A stretch of DNA of 27,241 nucleotides, taken from a virus. The stretch is from the IMG/VR virus record IMGVR_UViG_3300042380_000417, positions 1-27,241 of that record, one strand, 5' to 3'. A model generated the notes under the pieces. That model searched no databases, was not told the origin of the DNA, and saw nothing but the letters and a program-made list of their open reading frames with translations. Shown here piece by piece: positions 2,294 through 20,623 of this stretch (position 1 is its first letter; each line of letters opens with the position of its first letter). The translations under genes were made by a program, and so were the position numbers.

Positions 2294-2731
2294 CTAACGT
2301 CGCCTTGCAAAATATAAATTACTTACCCGGAGGCCGTAATCGTTAGGACGAAACCCTCGGTTTCTGGCGCCTTGAAACCCGAGATTCCAGACGGTCGCAA
2401 GCTGGGCCGGGGTAGGGGAAGGGACGCCATAGCGGGCGAACCGATCCCGACAGACGCGGAGGAATGCCGAGGCGATCTTATCCTGGGCCTTGGGATTACC
2501 CCATTCCGACCGAGGTATCGTCGGTTTGTTATTATGGCGCAGCCAATCATTCGCCTCGGCCCAGGCCCGTTCCCCCATTTGGTATTTGCCCAAGGAACGC
2601 CCCCGGTCGCCGACCGCATAAGGATCGTTTCCGGTTTCGACCAGGGCGACGGCCTCCAGAAGCTTGGCGTCCTCGGAAGCCCGCGACCAGGCGGCAAAGG
2701 TTGAGAGGAGGATCGTAAGGAGGCGGCGCAT
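2294..2731 (-). CDS. Lysozyme-like/transglycosylase domain protein, candidate endolysin
   Basis: The N-terminus (MRRLLTILLSTFAAWSRA) is a short basic then hydrophobic segment compatible with a signal or signal-arrest peptide. It is followed by LLEAVALVETGNDPYAVGDR, resembling the catalytic-Glu region (around E32) of SLT/lysozyme-like folds, and by GRSLGKYQM, the conserved Gly/Tyr-Gln segment. The later WNLGFQGARNRG resembles the end of this fold. It would cleave peptidoglycan glycan strands. At 145 aa it is about lysozyme-sized. The start overlaps the upstream stop at 2731 (TAATG). It lies about 4 kb from the holin/spanin cluster, so it could be the lytic endolysin or a virion-associated lysin. 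Confidence 0.7.
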   Translation of the reverse strand: MRRLLTILLSTFAAWSRASEDAKLLEAVALVETGNDPYAVGDRGRSLGKYQMGERAWAEANDWLRHNNKPTIPRSEWGNPKAQDKIASAFLRVCRDRFARYGVPSPTPAQLATVWNLGFQGARNRGFRPNDYGLRVSNLYFARRR

Positions 2732-3580: not shown

Positions 3581-5299
3581 TTAGGGTTTGGGTTGTTCGG
3601 GTTTGGTTTGGGAAATGAGTTTATCGACCTCGGCGATGCGCTGCCCGACCCAGGCCATTACGGGGACGGCCATAGAATTGCCGCAAGCTTTGTAACGCGG
3701 GCCGTCGGGGCATTCCGAGGCGGGTTTGCCTTTCCAGGGGATACGGGAATACCCCTTGGGGAACCCCTGGAGGGCCTCGCATTCCTCCGGCGTTAGACGA
3801 CGGACGGCCATAGCTTGCGAGGGATTAAATACCCCGCCGACGTGCTGGATTCCCGTCCTTGCGGCGTTTATCGTCTGAGCCGTATCTGATACGGTTTGGT
3901 TAAATGCGTCAAACGCCACGGGGTACGCAACGTGCGGGGCTTGGTCGCCCGCGTCGCATTTGATGGTCGGAAACGCCTCGGTCGAGGGATCGGCACCGGC
4001 CCGACGGACCAGGTTGCCAGGTTGGAATGCGATGGGTTGAGGTTGTACGACGAGGGCCTCGGCCTCGGTCCGTTCGTTACCCGTCCGCGAAAAAGGCGGG
4101 CCGCTGCTGGTGATTGTCGGGGCGACGTCGGCGCAGAAAGGTTTGGAGGGTTCGACGATTGCGTGCGTCGTGCGGGTATCGCCGAGATCAAAAAGGTTAA
4201 GGGTATTCGCCTTATCGGCCTCGACCCAGGTTTCGTCGTCCTGGTCCGACGATGCCCGTTTAGCTTTGCGGTAAGGAACCCCGACGGCGTGGGGGCCTTT
4301 GGAAATAAGGGTATCCATAGTCTCGGTCGCCTCGATATGCGGTTCGTATTGGGCGTTAACCCCTTGGTTAAAAGCAGCCCGATCTATAACGATGGGGGTA
4401 CCTCGACCCGTCCCGTCCTCGGTCGCCCCCTTGTTGCAGGAGGCGGTTAGGGCGTGCGCCGTCGAACCTGTGGCGCATACAATCGGCGTACCTCGACCCG
4501 TCCCATCCTCGGACCCGCGAGGCGAGGCCGTCAAGGTATGGGTCGTTTCGCCGGTGGCGCAGACGGGTTGCAGGACCGCAGGGAAACGGTTTTTGTCCGG
4601 CATCGTCTGGCCCTTGGAAAGGACCGCGTCTAGGGTCTGGCTTGTTTGTCCTCCGTCCCACCAGCAACCCCTTGGGTCGCCTGGACCAGGGCCGCCTTGA
4701 GGGCCGGAGGCAATTCCTTCCCCCTTCTTTCGGCCCTTCTTAATATCCCTGCGCAAGCTTTCTGGCTCAAAAAGAACCGCCGCGGCAGGTCGCCAATCTC
4801 CAAGATATCCGACAAGTATGCATCGGCGGCGTCGCTGCGGGACTCCGAAGTATTCAGCATTAAGCGTTCGGTAGGCGATATGATACCCGAGTTTAGCCAA
4901 CGTCCCGACAAAGGCGGCGAAATCGGACCCTCCGGGCTTTCCGGCTGAATAGACGCCTGGCACGTTTTCCCAGACAATCCAGCGGGGGAGAAGCTTTCCA
5001 ATAAGGCCAGCATATGCGAGGGCGACTCGACCGCGAGGATCGTCGAGGCCCAATCGTTTGCCCGCAACTGACCAGGCTTGGCAAGGGGTTCCTCCGACCA
5101 CAAGGTCGATTGAACCACGGTCGAGGGGCCATTCGTCGTATTTAGTGAGGTCGCCATAATTAGGGATTTGGGGGTATCGGTATTGGAGTATTGCTTTGGG
5201 AAATTCCTCGATCTCGGAAAAGGCGACGGGGGTCCAGCCAAGGGGGTGCCAGGCGACGGTTGCGGCCTCCATTCCGGAGCAGACGGATATGTAACGCAT
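3581..5299 (-). CDS. DNA (cytosine-5)-methyltransferase with repeat-rich insertion
   Basis: Transfers a methyl group from S-adenosylmethionine to C5 of cytosine. Motifs occur in canonical order: motif I ISVCSGMEAATVAW (4-17), motif IV GGTPCQAWSVAG with catalytic Cys73, motif VI WENVPG (110-115), motif VIII VPQRRRR (153-159), motif IX RRLTPEECEALQGFP (500-514) and motif X KACGNSMAVP (537-546). At 572 aa it is longer than typical 330-400 aa phage or bacterial enzymes. The extra length sits between motifs VIII and IX (about 185-495), where the target-recognition domain belongs, and is built of degenerate Thr-Leu-Thr repeats including two near-identical 30-residue units ending EDGTGRGTPIV. No restriction enzyme gene is adjacent, so it is probably an orphan protective methyltransferase. 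ATG at 5297-5299. Confidence 0.93.
   Translation of the reverse strand: MRYISVCSGMEAATVAWHPLGWTPVAFSEIEEFPKAILQYRYPQIPNYGDLTKYDEWPLDRGSIDLVVGGTPCQAWSVAGKRLGLDDPRGRVALAYAGLIGKLLPRWIVWENVPGVYSAGKPGGSDFAAFVGTLAKLGYHIAYRTLNAEYFGVPQRRRRCILVGYLGDWRPAAAVLFEPESLRRDIKKGRKKGEGIASGPQGGPGPGDPRGCWWDGGQTSQTLDAVLSKGQTMPDKNRFPAVLQPVCATGETTHTLTASPRGSEDGTGRGTPIVCATGSTAHALTASCNKGATEDGTGRGTPIVIDRAAFNQGVNAQYEPHIEATETMDTLISKGPHAVGVPYRKAKRASSDQDDETWVEADKANTLNLFDLGDTRTTHAIVEPSKPFCADVAPTITSSGPPFSRTGNERTEAEALVVQPQPIAFQPGNLVRRAGADPSTEAFPTIKCDAGDQAPHVAYPVAFDAFNQTVSDTAQTINAARTGIQHVGGVFNPSQAMAVRRLTPEECEALQGFPKGYSRIPWKGKPASECPDGPRYKACGNSMAVPVMAWVGQRIAEVDKLISQTKPEQPKP
4395..4508 (-). repeat. Tandem repeat inside methyltransferase target-recognition region
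   Basis: Two copies of a segment about 90 bp apart share an almost unchanged core (on the plus strand GTACCTCGACCCGTCCC, then TCCTCGG). They encode two successive 30-residue units, CATGETTHTLTAS...EDGTGRGTPIV and CATGSTAHALTAS...EDGTGRGTPIV (residues about 247-304). The nucleotide identity suggests a fairly recent duplication or gene conversion. Confidence 0.8.
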
Positions 5300-6812: not shown

Positions 6813-7136
6813 TTACCCGCCTCGACCCCGCCAGATTCGGAAACCGACCGCCCCGCCGACCATAGCGCAACCGACGGCGAGGGCCATTCCCAGATCGCGG
6901 CAAGTACGCAACGCCAGGGTCGCCGTCGTTAATTGTCTCTCCAGCTTTGCGTCGTCTGATTTCAAACCCGCGTCGGTGATAAGGAGGACCATCGTCTGCG
7001 ACGATGCGAACCCGTCGAGGACGTACGAACAAATCCAAGACGTCGTTACGGCGACGACCGCAGCAGAAACGACGACGACGCAGACGACGACCAACAGGTT
7101 TCGATCACCGTTTCTTTTTTGCTCCTCGTTTCGCAT
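6813..7136 (-). CDS. Membrane protein of the lysis cassette (107 aa, two predicted spans)
   Basis: A charged N-terminus (MRNEEQKRNGDRN) precedes a strongly hydrophobic segment (about 14-36, LLVVVCVVVVSAAVVAVTTS). A polar loop with a helical Lys/Glu region follows, then a second span (about 82-100, LGMALAVGCAMVGGAVGF) ending in Arg residues. It overlaps the end of the holin gene by 32 nt, so the two are probably co-translated. A holin/antiholin partner is possible. I cannot identify a family. ATG at 7134-7136. Confidence 0.6.
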   Translation of the reverse strand: MRNEEQKRNGDRNLLVVVCVVVVSAAVVAVTTSWICSYVLDGFASSQTMVLLITDAGLKSDDAKLERQLTTATLALRTCRDLGMALAVGCAMVGGAVGFRIWRGRGG

Positions 7137-7482
7137 TCGGATTTTTCGTCGTCTTAATTCCGACCGCCTTGCCGACCTCGGCCTCGGCTCGTTTCTTTAT
7201 TGCCCGTAGCAATGCGTCCAAACATTCCGGGGCCGCGTAACCCGCTGCGCCGACGACCGAATATCGCAAGGGTACCGAGGCGATACTTTCCTGGGCGTAG
7301 AATCCGACGAATAGGGCGGTGATCGCCGCGGCGAGAATTCGACGGGCGACCCATCCAGGCGATACGGGAGTTTCGGAAAGGAGGAGGCGACCGGCCATCG
7401 CCAACGCCCCGAGGACCGATGCGACCAAACCGTCGCGGACCTCCTGGGGGACCTCCTCGGGATTGACGGGCGAGGCGCTCAA
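7105..7482 (-). CDS. Holin (LydA/phage_holin_3-like)
   Basis: The 125-residue protein has three hydrophobic segments (about 18-36, 46-64 and 74-92) separated by short loops and ends in a highly basic tail (GIKTTKNPNAKRGAKKKR), the classical holin layout. The central pattern VLGALAMAGRLLLSE, GWVARRILAAAITALFVGFY and VVGAAGYAAPECLDALLRAI resembles LydA-type holins as I recall them. It would form inner-membrane lesions that release or activate the endolysin. It overlaps the HExxH protein by ATGA (7479-7482), and the lipoprotein next to that looks like a spanin. Confidence 0.72.
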   Translation of the reverse strand: MSASPVNPEEVPQEVRDGLVASVLGALAMAGRLLLSETPVSPGWVARRILAAAITALFVGFYAQESIASVPLRYSVVGAAGYAAPECLDALLRAIKKRAEAEVGKAVGIKTTKNPNAKRGAKKKR

Positions 7483-7766
7483 GTAATGCGAGGGGGTTTG
7501 GCGTTAGCTTCTAAAAGGACCTGGCGGTAATTCTGGGACCAAAGGACGTCGCGGATATACTTGCCCGCTGCATCTACTTTAGACTCCGGCAGATCGGGGC
7601 CGAAAAACAAATGGACGGCCTCGTGGATAAGGACCTCCAATTTTCGCTTGGCCCCAAGGCGGGGGTCGATTTCCACGGTCGGTGAGGTCGGGTCGTAATG
7701 ACATTGGCCCCAGGCACGTTCCCGCCCGAGCTTTCGGGTTATAACTTTAGGGCGTCGGGGAGGCAT
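7479..7766 (-). CDS. Small HExxH metalloprotease-like protein (95 aa)
   Basis: The zinc-protease signature HEAVH is seen at residues 48-52 (LEVLIHEAVHLFFGPDLPES), preceded by a strand (TVEIDPRLGAKRKLEVLIHE) and followed by a helix with acidic residues that could supply the third ligand. The layout resembles minimal SprT-like or ImmA/IrrE-like domains, but at 95 aa it is much shorter than most. It sits between the holin and the lipoprotein, overlapping both genes. It might process a virion or envelope protein or a host regulator. Substrate unknown. ATG at 7764-7766. Confidence 0.65.
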   Translation of the reverse strand: MPPRRPKVITRKLGRERAWGQCHYDPTSPTVEIDPRLGAKRKLEVLIHEAVHLFFGPDLPESKVDAAGKYIRDVLWSQNYRQVLLEANAKPPRIT

Positions 7767-8544
7767 CGTCGGAAGGGGGAACCCCCTTGGCTGCGTTGAG
7801 ATCGCGGACGTAATCGTAAAGGCGCCATAGGCCCAACCCGCCCGCCCCCGCTAGGGTAAGCCCCGCAACCCAAGGGAAGTACGTCGAACCATATACAAAG
7901 GGGACCGACCCGCATAGGACCCCGCATAGGAGGATTACCCCGCCGACGCGGAAACCGACAAAGGCCGAGGCGACCGCCCCCAGGACCGCCAACGCGGCGC
8001 CGGTTAGACTCCAGATATTCCGGGACGATTCGGCCTCGATCTTACGGATTTTCTCGTCGGCCTCGGTTTGGACGGCCTTAACCTTTGCCTCCAGCTGGTT
8101 AACCTTGGTAAGGGCGGCGGCCAGGTCCGAGGCGTTGCGCTTGGATTGGGCCTCGGCGGCTTTCCAATCTGCGTCGATCTTGGCGAGGAATTCCTTGGCA
8201 AAGGACGCCTGGTCGCGGTACGCCTTTTCGCCATCCTTGGCTGCGGCACGTTGGCGGGCAAACGCCAGATCGCCCTCGGAGGGGACCGGGAGGTATGAGA
8301 GGGCCAGCTTACCCTCGGCCTCGACGACCTTGGGGTTTTCCTTATTCTCGACCGCAACGGTTACCGCGGCGGCGACCCTACTGTCGGCCTTGTCGATCTT
8401 CTCGCCGACCGTCTGGAGGGCGCCTTGGGATACCGCGGGCTGGACGACGACGGGTTCCTGGGCGGGTTCCTTGTTCGACCGGCAACCCAAGAGGAGGGCC
8501 AAGACGAACGGAGGTAGGCAAACGCGGGCGACGTTAATTAGCAT
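7747..8544 (-). CDS. Lipoprotein with coiled coil and C-terminal membrane spans, u-spanin candidate
   Basis: The N-terminus MLINVARVCLPPFVLALLLG is a lipoprotein signal peptide ending at a lipobox (LLGC, Cys21). After a Pro/Val linker, residues about 40-175 form a long helical, charged, coiled-coil-like ectodomain (LTKVNQLEAKVKAVQTEADE). Residues about 177-241 hold three hydrophobic segments, followed by a short polar tail. An outer-membrane lipid anchor plus coiled coil plus C-terminal inner-membrane anchor is the architecture of unimolecular spanins, which fuse the two membranes in the last step of lysis. At 265 aa with several spans it is larger than known u-spanins such as T1 gp11. Located in the lysis cassette upstream of HExxH and holin genes. 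Confidence 0.62.
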   Translation of the reverse strand: MLINVARVCLPPFVLALLLGCRSNKEPAQEPVVVQPAVSQGALQTVGEKIDKADSRVAAAVTVAVENKENPKVVEAEGKLALSYLPVPSEGDLAFARQRAAAKDGEKAYRDQASFAKEFLAKIDADWKAAEAQSKRNASDLAAALTKVNQLEAKVKAVQTEADEKIRKIEAESSRNIWSLTGAALAVLGAVASAFVGFRVGGVILLCGVLCGSVPFVYGSTYFPWVAGLTLAGAGGLGLWRLYDYVRDLNAAKGVPPSDDASPTP

Positions 8545-8579: not shown

Positions 8580-8720
8580 TTAACGTCCCTTAAGGATATC
8601 CAGCAGCTTGCGGCCCTTGGATTCCAGGGAATCGGAGGCCGCCTTATGCTTTCGCATAATTAGCAGACCCGTGACCAGGCCGGCGACGAAGCCGATGGCG
8701 ATGCAGATGAGGTAGGTCAT
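8580..8720 (-). CDS. Small N-terminally anchored membrane protein (46 aa)
   Basis: The frame reads MTYLICIAIGFVAGLVTGLL, then IMRKHKAASDSLESKGRKLL and DILKGR, followed by TAA at 8580-8582. A single membrane span (residues 2-22) is followed by a basic helical cytoplasmic tail. The ATG overlaps the tail fibre stop as TAATG (8720-8722), the coupling style of this genome, which supports it strongly despite its size. It opens the lysis cassette. It could be a pinholin- or antiholin-like peptide, which is inference from position and topology. Confidence 0.65.
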   Translation of the reverse strand: MTYLICIAIGFVAGLVTGLLIMRKHKAASDSLESKGRKLLDILKGR

Positions 8721-18690: not shown

Positions 18691-19152
18691 TTACTTAATG
18701 CCCAAATGGGCGACAATCGCGGCCCGGTGCTTATTGTAAAAAGCTACCTTTTCGGACGGATTGGAGATCGAACAATATTCAGACCAAACCTCGGCGCTGG
18801 ATTTAGCGACGACGTTATCGGCCGGGGAGATTTCTGCGGGGGCAACGCCAACCGCGGAGGCGATCTTGGCGGCAACCTTACCGGCAGATTCGATTTGGCC
18901 GACGGCCTGGGCCTTAAGCTCGTTAGAGGCGGCCAGGGCCTTGGTAAGCTCCTCGACCTTGGCGGCCAGGGTGTCTCGCTCGGCAGCAAGGCCGGAAACC
19001 GCGGCAAACTTTTCCGAAAGATCGGAAAGCTCGGCGGCCTGGGCCTCGATTTTCGCCTTGGACGCGGAAAGCGCCTGGGCGTTGGATTCGGCCTCGGACG
19101 ATTTGGCGCCGAATGCGGCCTTGAGGGCCTTAAGGGATTGCTCCAGGGTCAT
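18691..19152 (-). CDS. Coiled-coil scaffolding protein candidate (153 aa)
   Basis: Residues about 1-100 form a long Ala/Glu/Lys-rich coiled coil (ALSASKAKIEAQAAELSDLS, TLAAKVEELTKALAASNELK). The rest is a compact C-terminal domain (SEVWSEYCSI-like region, EKVAFYNKHRAAIVAHLGIK) with basic residues. Scaffolding proteins that direct coat assembly are typically helical with a basic, coat-binding C-terminus, and this gene sits immediately before the coat. The ATG at 19150-19152 is chosen over a long upstream extension that lies antisense-like within the protease gene. A start-associated repeat lies 17 nt upstream. Confidence 0.65.
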   Translation of the reverse strand: MTLEQSLKALKAAFGAKSSEAESNAQALSASKAKIEAQAAELSDLSEKFAAVSGLAAERDTLAAKVEELTKALAASNELKAQAVGQIESAGKVAAKIASAVGVAPAEISPADNVVAKSSAEVWSEYCSISNPSEKVAFYNKHRAAIVAHLGIK

Positions 19153-19169
19153 ACGGTAAGCGATTAGTC

Positions 19170-19184
19170 CAACGCGGGAGTCAA
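19170..19184 (-). promoter_or_regulatory. 15-bp start-associated repeat, copy 4
   Basis: Exact CAACGCGGGAGTCAA. The TGA within it (plus TCA at 19181-19183) is the stop codon of the protease gene, and the scaffold ATG follows 17 nt after the repeat. It therefore joins the protease and scaffold/capsid units. Confidence 0.86.
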
Positions 19185-20623
19185 GCGATCCCCCGGGAAC
19201 GGTTACGGGCGCCCTTCTTTTCCGGCTCCTCGTCGGTATCGACGGCCTTGTCGCCGGTGTCAGATTCCTCCTCGGCCTTTTCCTTGGCGTCGTCGTTATC
19301 CTCCTCGGCCTTGGGGTCCTCCTCGTCCTTTTCCTCGGATTCGGGCTTTTCGTCGTCGTCCTCGGATTCGGGGTCTTTCTTTTCGTCGTCCTCGCCGTCC
19401 TCGGCCTTGGGGTCCTCCTCGGAATCCTCCGCGTCGGGCTGCTTTTCGTCGTCCTCGGATTCGGGCTTTTCCTCCTCGTCGTTAGATTCGGGCTTTTCCT
19501 CGCCCTCCTCCTTGTCGTCCTCGGAAACAGGCTCGTCGGGCTTTTCCTCGTCGTCCTGGTCCTCGTCGTTAGACTTCTTAAGCTTCTTACCCTTCTTGGG
19601 CATCGGTTCCGATCCGTCCTTTTCCTCCTCCTCGGGGGTTTTCTCGGCCTTGGCGACAAGGGCGTGGAGGCCGCCAGGGATACCCTTGAGGGCGCGGGCG
19701 GCAGCAAGGCGGGACATACCCTCATCCTCGCCAGGGTCGCGGTAGGCGGCGCTAGAATTGGCACCGGCGTCGTTTGCCTCGTCGGCCTCGATCTGGGCGG
19801 CGACCTCGGCGTCCAGGGTCTGCATAAGCTCGTCGAAACCGTTGGTTAGCGCCGTAACAAAACCCTTTTCGGCGGCCTTTTTGCCGGAAAAAGCTTGGCC
19901 GTTCATATCGTCGTCCTGGACGAATTCGCGGACGAGCTTAACGTCGGCCTTAAAATTGTCGGCGATTTCGATAACCTCGGCCTGGAGCTGGTCCCGCTGC
20001 GATTTGGAGAGGGACGTACCCGGAACCCCGAGGCCCTTAAGATCGCCGGATCGGATGACGTCAACCGCGACGCCCTCCTGGGCAAAGGCCGCAGACATAT
20101 CGTTATAAACGATATAACAACCGACGTTGGCGACCGAGGACGACGGGGTTGCGTAGAATTCCGACGCCTGGGAAGCTAGCCAATAGGCCGCCGAGCAGCA
20201 ATCCCCGGAGGTAAAGGAGATCGTGCGCTTGGAGCATTCGCGGATACGCTTGGCAAGCTCCGGAACCCCGACCGACGTGCCGCCAGGGGAATCGACGTCC
20301 AGGATAATGGTCGTAATCGCCGGGTCCCGTTCGCATTCCTCCAGCATTTCCTCCACGTCCTCCAGATCGCAAGCGCCGCAAGCCGCGTCCAGGTCGGACA
20401 GGTTGCGACCAATTACGCCCTTAATCGGCAGGACCGCAAAGGGGGGGAATTTCTCTAGGGACGCCTTGGCGCCGAATACGGCCTCCAGCATATCCGACAT
20501 ATCGGACGCCTTGGCGGCGAGGGGGAGCTGGAAAGAGGCGCAGCGTTCCAGGAACGCCTTGGCAAGGGTCGGTTGGATAAGGACCGGACGGTTGGATCGA
20601 ATATCGTTAGACAGATTACGCAT
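19181..20623 (-). CDS. S49-type prohead protease with long acidic C-terminal tail (480 aa)
   Basis: Residues about 60-275 form a signal-peptide-peptidase A/ClpP-fold protease: TTIILDVDSPGGTSVGVPEL (oxyanion loop), catalytic Ser144 in CCSAAYWLASQASEFYATPS, and Lys196 (SGDLKGLGVPG), a Ser-Lys spacing of 52 residues that matches SppA/SohB-type dyads. This family (lambda gpC-like) cleaves scaffold and portal or coat proteins during maturation. Residues about 328-470 are an extremely acidic tail built of EKPES-DDEE-type repeats, probably intrinsically disordered and possibly an internal scaffold-like or ion-shielding domain. Stop codon lies in start-associated repeat copy 4. Confidence 0.82.
   Translation of the reverse strand: MRNLSNDIRSNRPVLIQPTLAKAFLERCASFQLPLAAKASDMSDMLEAVFGAKASLEKFPPFAVLPIKGVIGRNLSDLDAACGACDLEDVEEMLEECERDPAITTIILDVDSPGGTSVGVPELAKRIRECSKRTISFTSGDCCSAAYWLASQASEFYATPSSSVANVGCYIVYNDMSAAFAQEGVAVDVIRSGDLKGLGVPGTSLSKSQRDQLQAEVIEIADNFKADVKLVREFVQDDDMNGQAFSGKKAAEKGFVTALTNGFDELMQTLDAEVAAQIEADEANDAGANSSAAYRDPGEDEGMSRLAAARALKGIPGGLHALVAKAEKTPEEEEKDGSEPMPKKGKKLKKSNDEDQDDEEKPDEPVSEDDKEEGEEKPESNDEEEKPESEDDEKQPDAEDSEEDPKAEDGEDDEKKDPESEDDDEKPESEEKDEEDPKAEEDNDDAKEKAEEESDTGDKAVDTDEEPEKKGARNRSRGIA
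19240..19630 (-). repeat. Low-complexity coding repeats for the acidic tail
   Basis: The plus strand shows many imperfect copies of CTCGGATTCGGGCTTTTC-like units interspersed with TCGTCGTCC, coding Glu/Asp/Ser/Lys/Pro repeats on the minus strand. Similar but unequal units suggest slippage or unequal recombination. The opposite strand has a Ser-rich open frame only as a by-product. Confidence 0.7.

Follow-up and report, generated by a model that had tools for sequence, protein, structure and literature searches.

A family of helical phage lipoproteins with three predicted C-terminal membrane spans and a probable spanin-like role in lysis

Unimolecular spanins (u-spanins) are described with one C-terminal TMD in an N-out/C-in orientation (PMC7830690 Table 1; one TMD also in PMC6139136), and all 58 known u-spanins are without periplasmic Cys (Kongari et al. 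2018, PMC6139136). The periplasmic domain of this class is described as mainly beta, and its mechanism as unsolved. In two-component spanins, disulfide-linked dimers are usual. The part of the i-spanin could be played by a type I inner-membrane protein or by an inner-membrane lipoprotein (Kongari et al., PMC6139136). We found no spanin with several membrane spans described in the open-access literature. Here, a lipoprotein gene was compared with these systems; it comes from a viral contig in IMG/VR that is 27,241 bases long and encodes a portal and a GpA-type terminase. This contig was analyzed over its whole length and is referred to below as the window.

The open reading frame occupies positions 7747..8544, exactly where the first-pass annotation had placed it, except that it is read from the minus strand, the opposite strand being rich in stops over this stretch. 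Assigned from the reading frame and its family, the product is a spanin-like lipoprotein of 265 aa (P0001). It begins with a 20-residue signal sequence (8485-8544; minus strand, as are all window features below) and the lipobox LLGC with Cys21 (8482..8493), followed by a linker with proline, then a helical part, and finally three hydrophobic segments near the C-terminus at residues ~178-197, 200-218 and 224-242. Both Cys21 and the three hydrophobic segments had been proposed from the sequence, and both held up.

The window protein used alone as a query retrieved one near-identical copy and one protein of 71-72% identity. Loci were collected with the neighboring holin as a query, which gave 80 loci, and with an alignment-based search, from which the best 80 of 336 matched stretches were taken. 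A profile built from 27 family members (A2) revealed lipoprotein homologues in 153 of the 160 loci examined. The family consists of 98 distinct proteins, which fall into 37 groups when an identity of 85% is applied, and the most distant pairs are 27% identical; the lipoprotein thus represents a widespread uncharacterized family and is not a one-off. Foldseek searches of BFVD with the predicted model returned two Caudovirales proteins, A0A6J5MZD0 (E 3.7e-14, 43% identity) and A0A6J5MD62 (E 5.6e-5), which very probably belong to this family; both are annotated as uncharacterized only, and no function has been proposed for either. In L007 (1821-2561) and L034 (5053-5757), a clearly different three-span domain of the GQYLRA type stands behind a similar head, which suggests that C-terminal modules have been exchanged by recombination in some members.

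Homology searches covered Pfam, PHROG, NCBIfam, PADLOC, and PDB sequences. Matches to DUF6438, SH3_and_anchor (TIGR04211), LeoBC, and holin superfamily III were rejected as weak matches of coiled-coil or membrane composition only; those to holin superfamily III (PF07332) were found in 11 of the 27 members, sub-threshold and far below the curated cut-off. PHROG gave no significant spanin match for the window protein, and homology to the PHROG 'Rz-like spanin' was likewise rejected, the weak matches probably reflecting coiled-coil composition. Three different family members used as queries against 50,697 phage records retrieved no relative.

A lipobox-type Cys is present in all 144 members with an intact N-terminus (143 recognized by pattern, one by eye). 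Its forms are mostly LTGC, LAGC or MAGC, with GAGC in L089, the member read by eye, and a strict PROSITE-type lipoprotein pattern is matched by 80 of the 98 distinct proteins, most misses being due to a Cys at -4. We infer that the protein is lipidated at this Cys and sorted to the outer membrane. Position +2 in the family N-termini is occupied by S, K, A, T, G or R. Asp, which at this position classically retains E. coli lipoproteins in the inner membrane, does not occur there; sorting rules in Verrucomicrobiota may differ. Periplasmic Cys is absent, as mature residues 2-120 are without Cys in 98 of 98 proteins. Among the family loci within L002-L160, a GTG rather than an ATG start is apparent in 61 of the 98 distinct members, so that automatic gene callers may misplace the start and hide the signal sequence.

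To describe the predicted fold, AlphaFold was applied to A2 (mean pLDDT 80, pTM 0.42), giving helices at residues 40-66, 71-84, 90-101, 105-195, 198-217, and 223-252; the same helix series was obtained for L034 (34% identity, pLDDT 82). Foldseek against the PDB with the model gave no match at E <= 0.001. According to the models, the periplasmic part would consist of a small helical head and a helix of ~90 residues running straight into span 1. The head (residues 40-101; 8242..8427), defined by the model and family conservation, contains the majority of the near-invariant positions (G47, D51, D54, P71, V74, E77, A81, L85, P86, and R99), and the long helix up to the membrane (residues 105-177; 8014..8232), which continues without a break into span 1, is predicted to form a coiled coil. 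A coiled-coil ectodomain of ~130 residues, as first annotated, is therefore roughly right in length and wrong as a single piece, since a three-helix head precedes the continuous helix 105-195. The hydrophobic period over the long helix averages 3.55 residues in 37 family representatives; in the window sequence taken by itself, such periodicity is marginal (shuffle p = 0.057). The long helix has exactly two lengths in the family, 58 and 69 residues, which differ by an 11-residue (hendecad) step, so the coiled-coil register would be kept.

Three hydrophobic stretches stand out in the family average. Family hydrophobicity, the model, and the charge pattern place span 1 at residues 178-197 (7954..8013), span 2 at 200-218 (7891..7947), and span 3 at 224-242 (7819..7875), after which a predicted cytoplasmic tail follows (7750-7818). 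Position 199, in the short, predicted cytoplasmic turn that joins spans 1 and 2, is R or K in 98% of aligned members (R199 in the window). In the family average, the loop that joins spans 2 and 3 has no positive residue and usually Asp219, with R/K at 245-247 in the tail. Taken singly, each of the 98 proteins fits an N-out, three-span, C-in charge pattern, with a positive loop 1, a loop 2 without positive residues, a positive tail, and at most one charge per span. Structure and topology prediction, which had been suggested as a check, thus gives a consistent answer, the two AlphaFold models and the charge pattern agreeing on three spans. Three spans in a protein of 265 residues had been called unusual, and they are so when set against the single TMD of the literature; within the family, three spans are the rule.

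The spans are conserved to about the same degree as the head and more strongly than the long helix; G201, G212, P215, and F223 are nearly invariant. Based on this conservation, the three-span domain may do more than anchor the protein, although hydrophobic segments have a narrower alphabet. It is conceivable, if fairly unlikely, that the domain is itself membrane-active, being either holin-like or a hairpin that promotes fusion, and is joined to a helical tether in the periplasm; if true, one protein would couple an inner-membrane lesion or fusion to outer-membrane disruption.

Read along the minus strand, the genes encode, in order, a tail fibre, a 46-aa one-span protein, the lipoprotein, a 95-aa HExxH protein, the holin, and a 107-aa two-span protein. 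The 46-aa protein (8580..8720), located in the interval between tail fibre and lipoprotein, has one hydrophobic N-terminal segment and counterparts in L003 and L089. The gene of the HExxH protein (7479..7766; M78/SprT-like, below cut-offs) overlaps the 3' end of the lipoprotein gene. The holin (7105..7482) is of the superfamily III type (phrog_6384, E 7.7e-6), and the gene after and overlapping it (6813..7136; conserved in L003) encodes the 107-aa protein with two hydrophobic segments, possibly an antiholin or a second holin. Linkage was counted in those 130 family loci whose sequence extends 1.5 kb or more downstream: the HExxH gene was linked in 124 and the holin in 122. Six holin loci are without the lipoprotein, and in these the holin lies within 609 bases of the contig start. 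A small metallopeptidase-like HExxH protein is a conserved part of this lysis cassette. In L018 (4997-6004), the lipoprotein and HExxH genes are fused in one frame of 335 residues, possibly by an assembly error; as the HExxH partner has no apparent signal sequence, the fusion is in keeping with a lipoprotein C-terminus in the cytoplasm.

The candidate endolysin is an exported SLT-type lysozyme/transglycosylase (2294..2731), assigned through its family A3: a relative hits Pfam SLT (E 3e-6), and among PDB sequences the family hits E. coli EmtA (E 9e-5). This enzyme is encoded downstream of the lipoprotein gene in 66 loci, at a distance of about 2.1-5.7 kb (~5 kb in the window). In L034 and L040, a Cys ends the signal sequence of the lysozyme, and these enzymes could themselves be lipoproteins. 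A scan of both strands of the window found no lipoprotein-like ORF other than the gene at 7747-8544; together with the lipobox-type Cys in all 144 intact N-termini, this puts the motif beyond a chance occurrence. The same kind of scan of 117 relatives found the family gene in 114, and its two other, isolated cases were the lysozyme; a second lipoprotein that might be an o-spanin was found neither in the window nor recurrently in the 117 relatives. Two further genes of the window drew attention: a cytosine DNA methyltransferase of 572 aa (3581-5299) whose conserved halves are separated by a repeated stretch of the 'HTLTAS...GTGRGTPIV' type, and a serine-peptidase-like head gene (18691-20623) with a long acidic D/E/K-rich tail, which is overlapped out of frame by the next ORF, possibly a frameshift or a nested scaffold.

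Among one-per-species bacterial genomes, the only match was a phage contig that had been binned with a MAG of the Opitutae (Verrucomicrobiota); this contig has the gene order of the window and no visible integration. The best terminase match among isolated phages was Verrucomicrobia phage P8625, which has a Puniceicoccales host, at 24% identity; no lipoprotein counterpart was present among the translated genes of P8625. The host probably belongs to Verrucomicrobiota (Opitutae), and the MAG contig and the terminase match point, weakly, to a likely diderm host. A survey of 388 Verrucomicrobiota genomes gave a match only in the same Opitutae MAG, which indicates that, for the most part, these phages do not show up as prophages.

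The first-pass annotation had recognized in this protein the architecture of a u-spanin beside lysis genes. In part, the family bears this out: it combines a lipobox Cys, a C-terminal N-out/C-in anchor, and no periplasmic Cys with a lysis-cassette position linked to the holin, no rival spanin was seen, and the probable diderm host fits. In other respects the family departs from known u-spanins: all members have three spans in place of a single TMD, the ectodomain is all-helical in two models and not mainly beta, and no homology to T1 gp11 was detected by BLASTP or profile. The candidate endolysin, about 2-6 kb downstream and not adjacent, also counts against a u-spanin. On balance, we consider the lipoprotein to be probably a unimolecular spanin-like lysis protein by function and topology, with a probability of about 0.72. 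Such a protein would span the periplasm with its linker, helical head, and long helix, the latter entering a three-span inner-membrane domain with a cytoplasmic C-terminus. Peptidoglycan would trap the copies until the exported SLT-type enzyme degrades it; freed copies could then cluster via the coiled coil and draw or fold both membranes together, leading to fusion or rupture.

Some phage lipoproteins, such as T5 Llp, act in exclusion, and such a precedent invites the thought of a late lipoprotein, in the inner membrane or bridging the envelope, that would protect the membrane or block the DNA entry of other phages (superinfection exclusion). The sequence holds nothing contrary to this role, which we nevertheless regard as unlikely given the strict holin linkage and the late position between tail fibre and holin, and because it would leave these phages without a visible spanin. 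To our knowledge, a three-span anchor and a long helix are not among the features of small exclusion lipoproteins, from which this family differs in both; the PADLOC match, moreover, is weak (E 0.0019) and located in the helix. The tail fibre gene that precedes could suggest a virion or assembly component, yet the signal sequence and lipobox found in every intact member would export the protein from virion assembly, and the conserved linkage is on the holin side, which makes this explanation highly improbable.

Two other readings stay closer to lysis. Since outer-membrane sorting is a prediction and an inner-membrane lipoprotein is allowed as an i-spanin (PMC6139136), the protein could be an i-spanin-like half with a separate outer-membrane partner from the phage or the host. 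We find this quite unlikely: the window has no other lipoprotein-like ORF and the relatives no recurrent one, Asp at +2 is absent, and the periplasmic part offers no Cys for the disulfide dimers usual in two-component spanins. Even a little less probable, in our opinion, is a hybrid of spanin and holin, in which the three-span domain makes or regulates membrane lesions and is coupled to the periplasmic tether. Three spans in N-out/C-in orientation are reminiscent of class I holins, and the conservation of the spans points the same way, as would the PF07332 matches, which are a hint and not evidence, being far under the curated cut-off; a separate holin gene, however, is close by in nearly all loci.

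If the u-spanin-like reading is right, a lysis function would be assigned to environmental phage proteins that are now merely uncharacterized, and annotation rules that expect a single C-terminal span would miss such proteins. The family would also allow a direct test of which features a one-chain spanin needs.

Compared with T1 gp11, the lipoprotein shares an N-terminal lipobox (LSGC in T1), a C-terminal anchor with a positive cytoplasmic tail, the lack of periplasmic Cys, and a single gene near the holin; Ser at +2 is found in gp11 and in about half of the family, with Arg in the window copy. Similarity to gp11 was detected neither by BLASTP nor by profile. The T1 protein has 133 aa, one span, and an ectodomain described as beta-rich, in contrast to ~240-265 aa, three spans, and an all-helical ectodomain in the family, and the T1 order of holin, endolysin, and spanin differs from that of lipoprotein, HExxH protein, and holin, with the candidate endolysin about 2-6 kb further. 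Because the single span, the beta-rich ectodomain, and the similarity to gp11 are all lacking, the family is outside the described u-spanin families, the 12 besides that of gp11 being set apart by description only. It also departs from two-component spanins, which have separate i-spanin and o-spanin genes, as no second lipoprotein-like ORF was found in the window, nor a recurrent one in the relatives. With lambda Rz/Rz1 it shares a helical, coiled-coil-forming periplasmic part (Rz) and a lipoprotein end (Rz1); unlike in lambda, periplasmic Cys is absent, no embedded or second lipoprotein gene was found, and both ends are in one chain, with the inner-membrane anchor at the C-terminus and not at the N-terminus. 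If the proposed function is true, the family would represent an independent solution to the u-spanin task, with the same ends joined by a helical rod and a polytopic, well-conserved inner-membrane domain.
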